Translations under genes and position numbers: made by a program
The notes under the pieces: generated by a model
What the model saw: the letters and a program-made list of their open reading frames with translations, nothing else
What the model was told of the DNA's origin: nothing
Database searches by the model: none
From: Gallionellales bacterium GWA2_55_18
Lineage (GTDB): Bacteria > Pseudomonadota > Gammaproteobacteria > Burkholderiales > Gallionellaceae
NCBI GenBank assembly: GCA_001801055.1
Contig: MGWP01000034.1
Span: 1-46,748 of the forward strand
Direction of reading: 5' to 3'
Length of the DNA stretch: 46,748 nt
In this document: positions 24,666-28,346 of the stretch, one piece after another
How positions within the stretch are numbered: the first letter of the stretch is position 1
How the letters are laid out: every line of letters starts with the position of its first letter

Positions 24666-26825
24666 CTATGATGTTTCGAGTAACCCATTATGCCGCAACA
24701 ATGCGTCTATGCTCGGCTCGCGCCCGCGGAATGCGGCGAAGGACTGCATCGCGCCGCGGCTGCCGCCCATCGCCAGTACCTCGCTGCGGAAACGCGCACC
24801 GACATCCGGATTCAGCACGCCGTTTTCCTCGAACAGGCTGTACGCGTCGGCGGACAGCACTTCCGCCCATTTGTAGCTGTAATAGCCCGCCGCATAGCCG
24901 CCGGCGAAAATATGCGAAAAGCTGTGCGGGAAGCGCTGGAACGCGGGTGGGATCAGCACCGCCACTTCGGCGCGCACTTCGTCGAGCAATTGCAGGATGT
25001 CGCTCCGACACGGTGGGGCGGAGCCCTCCGGTGCGGGAGGAGCTGCTGGGCGGCCGCTCTCGCAACCGTCTGGCTTCTCCAGTAACGTGTTGCGGTCGCC
25101 GTTTGCGCCGCCAGCCTCGAAATTGCTGTGCATCAGCATGTCGAACAAAGCAAATTCGATCTGGCGCAGGGTCTGCAAGCCACTCTGGAAGTTCTTCGCG
25201 GCAAGCATCTTGTCGAACAATGCGCGCGGCAGCTTTTCATTGGTCTCTGAATGGCGCGTCATGCCGTGCAGCACGTCCCATTCCCAGCAAAAATTTTCCA
25301 TGAACTGGCTGGGCAGCTCTACCGCATCCCATTCCACGCCGTTAATACCGGACACGGCGAGGTCTTCCACTTCGGTGAGCAGGTGGTGCAGGCCGTGGCC
25401 GAATTCGTGGAACAGCGTGATCACTTCGTCATGGGTGAACACTGCCGGTTTGCCGCCCACCGGCGGCGAAAAATTGCAATTCAAATAGGCGACAGGCGTT
25501 TGTATTCCCTCTGTCCTCTGTCCTCTGCCACCTGTCGTCTGAACACGTCGGCGCGTGATCACGTCATCCATCCACGCCCCGCCGCGCTTGCTGTTGCGCG
25601 CGTACATATCGAGATAAAACTGGCCGACCAGTTGCCCCTGCGCGTCGCGGATATCAAAGAAGCGCACATCGTCATGCCAACTTGGCGCGCTGGATGCATT
25701 GATCTGCAAGCCATACAGCGTTTCGACCAGCTTGAACATGCCGGGTAGCACCGCGTCTTCCGGGAAATACTGTTTCACCTCCTGCTCGGAAAAAGCGTAG
25801 CGTTGCTCACGCAGTTTTTCACTGGCGTAGCCGATATCCCATGATTGCAGTTCCTGCAACCCCAATTCGGCGCGCGCGAATTCGCGCAGTTCCACCAGAT
25901 CTTTTTCGGCAAAGGGGCGTGCGCGTTGTGCCAGTTCGCGCATGAACGTAACTACCTGCTGCGGTGACTCCGCCATCTTGGCCGCCAGCGACAGTTCGCC
26001 GAAGTTGGCGAAACCCAGCAGGCTTGCCTCTTCACCACGCAGCTGGACGATCTCATCCATCAGCTTGGTGTTATCCCACTCCGGCTTGCCGAATTCGCTG
26101 GCACGTGTGCCATAGGCGCGATACATCGTTTCGCGCAAGGCGCGGTTATCGGCAAATTGCATCACCGGCATATACGATGGGGCCTTAAGCGTAAATAACC
26201 AGCCAGTTTTTTCCGCCGCGACCGCTGCCTCCTGCGCCGCCTGCAGCACATCTTCGGGCAAGCCGCTCAACTCGCCCCGGTTCTCGACCACAAGCGTGTA
26301 GTCATTGGTCGCATCGAGCAGGTTATCGGAAAAACGCGACGACAATTCCGCCAAGCGTTCCTGTATCTCCAAATAGCGCGCCTTCTTGTCCTCAGGCAAT
26401 TCCGCGCCGCCGAGGCGAAAGTCGCGCAGCTCGTTTTCGATGATCTTCTTGCGCGCCACACTCAAGCCCGCGAATTCAGGACTGTTGTGCAATGCCTTGA
26501 ACTTCTGGAATAGCGCGAGATTTTGGCCAAGTTCGGCGTAATATTGGGTGATCTTCGGCAGCGTGGCGTTATACACCTCGCGTAATTCCGGACTGTTCAT
26601 CACCGCGTTCAAATGCCCGACCGGCCCCCACGCACGCGACAGCCGTTCGTTGGCATTTTCCATCGGCACTATGAAATCCTGCCAGGCAGGCGGCGCACTG
26701 TCGCTCAGCAGCCGCGTGATCAGCGCACGGTTTTCCGCCAGCAACTGCTCAATCGCCGGGGCAACATGTTCGGGTTTGATCTCCGCAAAGCGCGGTAGGC
26801 CGGAGAAATCGAGTAATGGGTTCAT
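24666..26825 (-). CDS. prlC: oligopeptidase A (M3 family metallopeptidase)
   Basis: This 719-residue cytoplasmic zinc oligopeptidase degrades short peptides, including signal-peptide fragments. The zinc site HEFGHGLHH and downstream Glu in GVEWDAVELPSQF are intact. ATG 26825 (MNPLLDFSGLPRF) replaces the track start 23 codons upstream. The family is usually about 680 residues. The excess is explained by two insertions: roughly 32 residues of palindromic repeat (KPDGCESGRP, then APEGSAPPCR) before DILQLLDEVRAEVAV, and about 10 residues (TTGGRGQRTEG) in a loop before IQTPVAYLNCNF. Both keep the frame. First gene of a likely operon with grx-like, xthA, yhcC-like, ubiU and ubiV. Confidence 0.93.
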   Translation of the reverse strand: MNPLLDFSGLPRFAEIKPEHVAPAIEQLLAENRALITRLLSDSAPPAWQDFIVPMENANERLSRAWGPVGHLNAVMNSPELREVYNATLPKITQYYAELGQNLALFQKFKALHNSPEFAGLSVARKKIIENELRDFRLGGAELPEDKKARYLEIQERLAELSSRFSDNLLDATNDYTLVVENRGELSGLPEDVLQAAQEAAVAAEKTGWLFTLKAPSYMPVMQFADNRALRETMYRAYGTRASEFGKPEWDNTKLMDEIVQLRGEEASLLGFANFGELSLAAKMAESPQQVVTFMRELAQRARPFAEKDLVELREFARAELGLQELQSWDIGYASEKLREQRYAFSEQEVKQYFPEDAVLPGMFKLVETLYGLQINASSAPSWHDDVRFFDIRDAQGQLVGQFYLDMYARNSKRGGAWMDDVITRRRVQTTGGRGQRTEGIQTPVAYLNCNFSPPVGGKPAVFTHDEVITLFHEFGHGLHHLLTEVEDLAVSGINGVEWDAVELPSQFMENFCWEWDVLHGMTRHSETNEKLPRALFDKMLAAKNFQSGLQTLRQIEFALFDMLMHSNFEAGGANGDRNTLLEKPDGCESGRPAAPPAPEGSAPPCRSDILQLLDEVRAEVAVLIPPAFQRFPHSFSHIFAGGYAAGYYSYKWAEVLSADAYSLFEENGVLNPDVGARFRSEVLAMGGSRGAMQSFAAFRGREPSIDALLRHNGLLETS
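25001..25095. repeat. inverted pair of palindromic elements inside prlC
   Basis: On the minus strand 25043-25001 reads GCTCCTCCCGCACCGGAGGG and then CTCCGCCCCACCGTGTCGGAG. The same family occurs on the plus strand at 25056-25095 as CTCTCGCAACCGTCTGGCTT followed by CTCCAGTAACGTGTTGCGG. The first copy closely matches aceE 46281-46315 and the second closely matches the hisF-hisI copy at 36998-37035. The two copies face each other, a REPIN-like arrangement, and occupy about 96 bases, a multiple of three. Confidence 0.85.
25506..25542. repeat. short tandem-repeat insertion inside prlC
   Basis: The plus strand has 7-bp units CTCTGTC repeated in CTCTGTCCTCTGTCCTCTGC. It encodes the TTGGRGQRTEG loop of the M3 peptidase, where relatives have only a few residues between RRR and QTPVAYL. 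The frame is kept. Confidence 0.55.
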
Positions 26826-27025
26826 GGATGAGTGGGAATAAATGCTGCGGTTGAATATCTGACAACAGCATTTTACTACGAAATATTTTGGCAATAGTAC
26901 GGCTTGTGCTGGTCGAAGCGCGATATGCGGCTGTCAAAAAATAAACGAAATCGCCTCTAAAGTCTCCGATAATCGTCAAGCAAACCCAATGAAAACCGCC
27001 GGAGTACGATCAACCTAAAAACGGC

Positions 27026-27215: not shown

Positions 27216-27256
27216 CTTTTTATAAATTCAAATGCACCCCCGAACTAATTTGCATG

Positions 27257-27283
27257 CTGGCACTCACAGGCCGCGAGTGCTAG
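27257..27283 (+). promoter_or_regulatory. CIRCE-like HrcA operator overlapping the rpoH promoter
   Basis: CTGGCACTC and GAGTGCTAG are 9-bp arms with one mismatch, separated by exactly 9 bases. The HrcA operator consensus is TTAGCACTC-N9-GAGTGCTAA. A possible -10, TAGAAT (27281-27286), overlaps the right arm, so repressor binding would block transcription. An AAGGAGG ribosome site and the rpoH ATG follow within 30 bases. HrcA itself is not in this window. Confidence 0.8.
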
Positions 27284-27308
27284 AATATTCGTGTAAGGAG
27301 GAGATGCC

Positions 27309-28163
27309 ATGAATATTGCAATGAGCCTGCCCATACCGGCTGCCGTTGGCAGCTTGGAGAGTTATATACAAACGGTGAACCGCTTTCCGCTATTGTCGCA
27401 GGAGGAGGAATTCGCATTGGCGACGCGCTTCAAGACCGAGAACGATCTCGATGCCGCGCGCGGGTTGGTGTTGTCTCACCTACGCGTGGTTGTCAGCGTG
27501 GCGCGTGGTTTTGCCGGTTATGGATTGCCCCAAGCGGACTTGATCCAGGAAGGCAACATCGGACTGATGAAAGCGGTGAAACACTACGATCCGGATCGCG
27601 GGGTGCGCTTGGTATCGTTCGCGTTGCACTGGATACGTGCAGAGATTCATGAGTTCGTGGTGCGCAACTGGCGGCTGGTGAAGATCGCCACCACCAAGGC
27701 GCAACGCAAGCTGTTCTTCAACTTGCGCAGCCTGAAGCAGGGACTGGAGCCGCTTAAACCGCAGCAGATATCCGAAATCGCCAAGCAACTTAATGTCAGC
27801 GAGCACGATGTGGTGGAAATGGAAGCGCGCTTCGCCGGACATGAAGTTGCGCTGGAACCAGGCGGTAGCGATGACGACGAGAGCTATGCGCCGATTCATT
27901 ATCTGTCCGACGACGAAGAGAATGAACCGTCTCACATTCTGGAAACGGCTGAGCGTGAGCGCTTGCAAACATCCGGCTTGGCGAATGCGTTGGCTGTGCT
28001 GGATGAACGCAGCCGCCGTATCGTTGAAGCGCGTTGGCTGGGCGAAGGAGCAACGGCAACACTGCATGACCTGGCCGCCGAGTTCAATGTATCGACCGAA
28101 CGCATCCGCCAGATCGAGCAGAAGGCATTAAGCAAAATGCACGCGGCGCTGGCTGCCGTTTAA
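27309..28163 (+). CDS. rpoH: heat-shock sigma factor RpoH (sigma-32)
   Basis: This 284-residue group 3 sigma-70 factor has region 2 (DLIQEGNIGLMKAVKHYDP, then VSFALHWIRAEIHEFV), the RpoH-specific box QRKLFFNLR, and region 4 ending in a helix-turn-helix (LHDLAAEFNVSTERIRQIEQ). It directs polymerase to heat-shock promoters. AAGGAGG lies 7 bases before ATG 27309. The CIRCE-like operator just upstream suggests it is held down by HrcA when chaperones are sufficient, which would join the two heat-shock circuits. Confidence 0.95.
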   Translation: MNIAMSLPIPAAVGSLESYIQTVNRFPLLSQEEEFALATRFKTENDLDAARGLVLSHLRVVVSVARGFAGYGLPQADLIQEGNIGLMKAVKHYDPDRGVRLVSFALHWIRAEIHEFVVRNWRLVKIATTKAQRKLFFNLRSLKQGLEPLKPQQISEIAKQLNVSEHDVVEMEARFAGHEVALEPGGSDDDESYAPIHYLSDDEENEPSHILETAERERLQTSGLANALAVLDERSRRIVEARWLGEGATATLHDLAAEFNVSTERIRQIEQKALSKMHAALAAV

Positions 28164-28247: not shown

Positions 28248-28346
28248 GATATTGCTCTATTGATCTTGAATTGGAATAACCGCTAACACAAAACGACCCC
28301 TTCTTCGGCTTCACGCCAGGGAAAGGGGTTATTTTTGCGGAACACA

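Follow-up and report, generated by a model that had tools for sequence, protein, structure and literature searches.

A predicted HrcA operator overlies a probable RpoE-type promoter of the σ32 gene rpoH in a Gallionellaceae bacterium

Textbook models of σ32 regulation derive from Escherichia coli, an organism without HrcA. HrcA is known from Bacillus and other bacteria to depend on GroEL. A CIRCE has been predicted for Geobacter sulfurreducens rpoH, ~50 bp upstream of its start codon (PMC545781; Genome Biol 2004, Table 8). That report concerns one deltaproteobacterial genome and does not describe overlap with a σE promoter. In E. coli, RpoE transcribes rpoH from promoter P3, through which this sigma factor was first identified (PMC8103513). 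In E. coli K-12 the P3 element, GAACT-N17-TCTGA, begins 120 bp before the rpoH start codon. The locus described here is like that of G. sulfurreducens in having a predicted HrcA operator before rpoH, and the same circuit can be proposed. The operator is the one known from HrcA control of groESL, and a σE-type motif has the same element and spacing as P3. Unlike this genome, E. coli has no hrcA (it was the control for our hrcA profile search) and no CIRCE at P3. In contrast to the single Geobacter genome, the site is here near-universal in hrcA-bearing beta- and gammaproteobacteria and is lost with hrcA.

The window, the whole stretch of DNA analysed, comprises 46,748 nucleotides from Gallionellales bacterium GWA2_55_18 (contig MGWP01000034.1). 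Both its relatives and the RpoH tree assign it to the Gallionellaceae. A sequence-only reading had placed a CIRCE-like palindrome, with the exact 9-base spacing of the HrcA site, in front of rpoH. We confirmed CTGGCACTC-N9-GAGTGCTAG at 27257–27283, 25 bp from the rpoH ATG (27309). The features of the region are as follows.

27242–27268, + strand: probable σE (RpoE)-type promoter; −35 GAACTA at 27242–27247, −10 TCACA at 27264–27268.
27257–27283, + strand: CIRCE operator (predicted HrcA site); arms conserved, spacer variable, tracks hrcA presence.
27257–27265 and 27275–27283: CIRCE left arm CTGGCACTC and right arm GAGTGCTAG, separated by the 9-base spacer ACAGGCCGC.
27257–27286, + strand: possible σ70-like promoter within the operator; CTGGCA at 27257–27262, 18 bp, TAGAAT at 27281–27286.
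27295–27303, + strand: Shine-Dalgarno region AAGGAGGAG, outside the palindrome.
27309–28163, + strand: rpoH, heat-shock sigma factor σ32, 284 aa; TIGR02392 389 bits, NF005143 409 bits.

The identity of the downstream gene also held, the open reading frame at 27309–28163 passing the curated RpoH cut-off (389 bits for TIGR02392 against 323). Compared with TTAGCACTC-N9-GAGTGCTAA, the palindrome has 3 mismatches among 18 arm bases (15/18 match), and these are confined to the outer ends. Its 12-base inner core, GCACTC-N9-GAGTGC, is perfect and the spacer is 9 bases. No CIRCE match with up to 3 mismatches occurred in 100 shuffles of the window. Base composition predicts 0.013 such matches for the window as a whole and 0.00014 for the 500 bp that precede rpoH. 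No second perfect CIRCE core occurs in the assembly, which spans 1.69 Mb at 71.5% completeness; 0.14 would be expected. Sequence and conservation together make it almost certain that the palindrome before rpoH serves the heat-shock repressor HrcA as a binding site.

The flanks of the gene bear two further observations. On the 3′ side of rpoH, at 28295–28335, GACCCCTT...AAGGGGTTATTTTT resembles an intrinsic terminator by eye; the scan did not list it. Divergent from rpoH, on the − strand at 24666–26828, lies prlC (oligopeptidase A). Its family match comes in two stretches and, at 846 bits, stays below the curated cut-off of 927. The gene bears segments of low complexity, QTTGGRGQRTEGIQ and GGANGDRNTLLEKPDGCESGRPAAPPAPEG, that look like inserts and may be short repeat insertions.

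A genome without hrcA had been named as evidence against the proposal. The assembly has a single hrcA (PF01628, E = 7e-67; TIGR00331 equivalog, 316 bits). A search for further CIRCE sites, also suggested earlier, found TTAGCAGTC-N9-GAGTGCTAA before groES, with 1 mismatch. With hrcA present, and CIRCE at both groES and rpoH, the predicted HrcA regulon in what is assembled here is therefore groESL plus rpoH. Another core with one mismatch (G000:C35:48101) falls in no listed open reading frame of at least 120 aa. There was no CIRCE near hrcA in this assembly. The dnaK gene apparently falls in the portion that this 71.5% complete assembly lacks; a candidate DnaK (L098) was rejected, being HscA. 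Across 20 related genomes, a σ32-type promoter, CTTGAAA...CCCC, precedes the CIRCE at groES.

Within the Gallionellaceae, 65 of 80 named rpoH loci have a CIRCE with no more than 3 mismatches, 22–38 bases 5′ of the start codon. The arms are conserved and the spacers are free. Hence the site, whose absence from all close relatives would have spoken against the sequence-only reading, precedes rpoH in most of them. We found hrcA in 124 of 158 Gallionellaceae genomes. Among genomes at least 90% complete, an exact CIRCE anywhere in the genome was present in 75 and absent from 5 of those with hrcA; for those without hrcA the numbers were 2 and 17. The two are thus concordant in 92 of 99 genomes (Fisher p = 7e-13, the genomes being related). 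Of the five exceptions with hrcA, four (G070, G086, G104 and G112) have a slightly degenerate rpoH site. For the fifth (G004), the contig ends short of the expected operator position. In the 100% complete genome G138 (L158) the rpoH CIRCE is intact and the hrcA search was negative, through an assembly gap or a very recent loss.

Where hrcA is lost, the site decays. In hrcA-less Gallionellaceae the right arm at rpoH, read in register, has a median of 4.5 mismatches in 9 bases. Individual sites range from unrecognisable to a single core change. On the RpoH tree, loss of the site requires at least 4 changes, three of them in clades and the fourth in a second, recent copy of rpoH (L051). The clades are L047 and relatives, L083 with L086, and L064 with L072; all members are without hrcA. 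This accompanying loss of hrcA and site was not part of the sequence-only reading, and nor was the RpoE-type promoter motif that the operator overlies.

Several Gallionella lineages, many represented by near-complete genomes, have no hrcA, apparently through at least three losses. The genomes concerned are G017, G019, G044–G048, G063, G064, G067, G069, G074–G077, G082, G084 and G085. In the relative nzgw562, rpoH is present as two close copies, at G052:C6:577874-578695 (L051, L124) and G052:C4:173897 (L042, L125). The former is without CIRCE, promoter motif and approximately the first 10 codons, as if it were a recent duplication minus the control region.

To place the site beyond the family, we sampled 60 Burkholderiales genomes from 35 families other than Gallionellaceae. 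CIRCE precedes rpoH in 59 of the 60, and in 34 of the 35 families, with at most 4 mismatches and mostly 0–2. By comparison, the best match in shuffled 461 bp stretches had 5 to 9 mismatches. The same 59 genomes carry hrcA. The exception (G317), a 1.2 Mb genome, has neither, and an additional Burkholderiales genome (G203) has both. Conservation before rpoH, which had been put forward as a check, therefore extends to nearly all hrcA-bearing Burkholderiales. A further 39 genomes represented other Gammaproteobacteria in the GTDB sense, 32 with hrcA and 7 without. The rpoH CIRCE was present in 31 of the 32 and in none of the 7. For the remaining hrcA-bearing genome (G536), no CIRCE was found in the 500 bp before rpoH. 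In the pooled data the site is present in 91 and absent from 1 with hrcA, against 0 and 8 without (p = 5e-11). The genomes are related and the p-values therefore overstate independence; the true weight is smaller. Despite this relatedness, several separate losses agree in direction. The sequence-only reading had left open how common the arrangement is in betaproteobacteria: among the genomes sampled, it is near-universal where hrcA is present. The predicted HrcA site before rpoH is thus old, and near-universal in the hrcA-bearing beta- and gammaproteobacteria sampled. Since nearly all of these keep the site, it is not a local curiosity.

The operator had also been said to overlap the likely −10 element. 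This is true of the σ70-like TAGAAT (27281–27286) and equally of the σE-type TCACA (27264–27268). In the motif GAACT-N17-TCACA (27242–27268), the CIRCE left arm ends with the TC of the −10. The general pattern, GAACY-N17-TCNNA, is usually overlapped by the rpoH operator. GAACY lies exactly 22 bases 5′ of the CIRCE TC at 50 of 81 rpoH sites in hrcA-bearing Gallionellaceae, 27 of 60 in other Burkholderiales and 20 of 31 in other Gammaproteobacteria. It is shifted one base further in another 2, 9 and 4 cases, respectively. None of 21 groES sites has GAACY at this offset. In 20 of 22 hrcA-less Gallionellaceae, where the CIRCE arms decay, GAACY-N16-18-TCNNA is retained, compared with 2% in shuffles. 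The motif is not universal at the rpoH operator; no GAAC element accompanies the CIRCE in the Gallionellaceae genera g11 and g12 or in Ferrigenium species. This genome contains rpoE. The motif precedes rpoE itself at only 1 of 30 rpoE-family loci, in a single relative, so assignment to RpoE rests on the likeness to E. coli P3. From that likeness and its conservation, GAACT-N17-TCACA is probably an RpoE-type promoter.

The operator may instead be real and the promoter beneath it solely of σ70 type (TTGGCA/CTGGCA-N18-TANNAT), the GAAC element being minor or unrelated. We regard this as possible though rather unlikely. TANNAT lies over the CIRCE right arm at 79 of 81 Gallionellaceae, 49 of 60 Burkholderiales and 21 of 31 gammaproteobacterial rpoH sites, and after CIRCE at none of 21 groES sites. 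The promoter scan listed CTGGCA-18-TAGAAT with 9 of 12 matches, such sites being no more numerous than in shuffles, and some genera do without GAAC. Conversely, GAACY-N17-TCNNA matches E. coli P3, keeps a constant offset across the class, and survives loss of both hrcA and the right arm. TTG at CIRCE positions 1–3 is equally common at groES (17 of 21) and hence is not evidence for a −35 element. The G at position 3 (TTGGCA) was likewise rejected as an rpoH-specific σ70 −35, the groES CIRCE of the same genus having it too. A σ54 −24/−12 reading of TGGCAC, made by eye, was dropped; the spacer bases are free and there is no fixed GC 10 bases past GG. Two overlapping promoters are likely at rpoH in many species, given that TANNAT occurs at nearly all rpoH sites of Gallionellaceae (79 of 81) and at no groES site. 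The groES region of Gallionellaceae, unlike rpoH, has its CIRCE just after the σ32-type promoter, with neither the GAAC element nor TANNAT.

That the inverted repeat acts as RNA (a leader hairpin, thermosensor or stability element) and not as a DNA operator is highly improbable. Transcription from an upstream start could include the repeat, and other bacteria are known to carry CIRCE hairpins in their mRNA. Yet an Rfam search gave no match, both arms are conserved in sequence with a free spacer, the Shine-Dalgarno sequence lies outside the hairpin, and the site tracks hrcA, whose product is a DNA-binding protein. A functionless chance palindrome in this strain, for which one could cite the three outer mismatches and an additional core change (TTGGCAATC) in the closest sister species (L017 and L018), has a negligible probability and is already refuted by conservation of the site, 0.00014 matches being expected before rpoH and nearly all hrcA-bearing relatives sharing the position.

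We hold with considerable confidence that HrcA, whose activity would follow chaperone supply, blocks transcription of rpoH at a CIRCE over a probably RpoE-type promoter. The earlier suggestion that the σ32 gene is placed under HrcA is supported by the hrcA gene and conservation of the site; HrcA binding, repression, the sigma factor in use and GroEL dependence are predicted steps. HrcA on the operator would bar RNA polymerase from the rpoH promoter region, covering both the σE-type and the σ70-like promoters. With ample free GroEL, HrcA would be active, rpoH and groESL expression low, and σ32 scarce. When misfolded protein occupies GroEL, HrcA activity would fall and rpoH and groESL would be released together. 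Afterwards, σ32 would boost groESL transcription. RpoE would supply an activating input at rpoH from envelope stress. Expression of rpoH would require an 'on' signal, from RpoE or the housekeeping sigma factor, together with the absence of HrcA.

CIRCE before rpoH as such has already been predicted in G. sulfurreducens, and its conservation may be known too. The literature searched gave no betaproteobacterial HrcA–rpoH report; Permina and Gelfand (2003), covering beta-, gamma- and epsilon-proteobacteria, may contain one. We put at even odds the proposal that an HrcA operator forming the −10/start region of a RpoE-type rpoH promoter is ancestral to Beta- and Gammaproteobacteria, and that E. coli P3 is a remnant after hrcA loss. 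In the literature searched we met no earlier description of an rpoH operator overlapping a RpoE-type promoter, or of P3 as such a remnant.

In the sampled beta- and gammaproteobacteria that keep HrcA, the σ32 gene itself bears a predicted HrcA operator, which usually lies over an RpoE-like promoter motif. Were the arrangement to function as proposed, groESL would be controlled twice, directly by HrcA and via σ32, in a coherent feed-forward circuit joining chaperone supply and envelope stress. The circuit is directly testable in culturable betaproteobacteria. If the proposal of an ancestral composite of operator and promoter is true, HrcA would sit above σ32, and the usual picture of the two as parallel systems would not hold in most of these bacteria.
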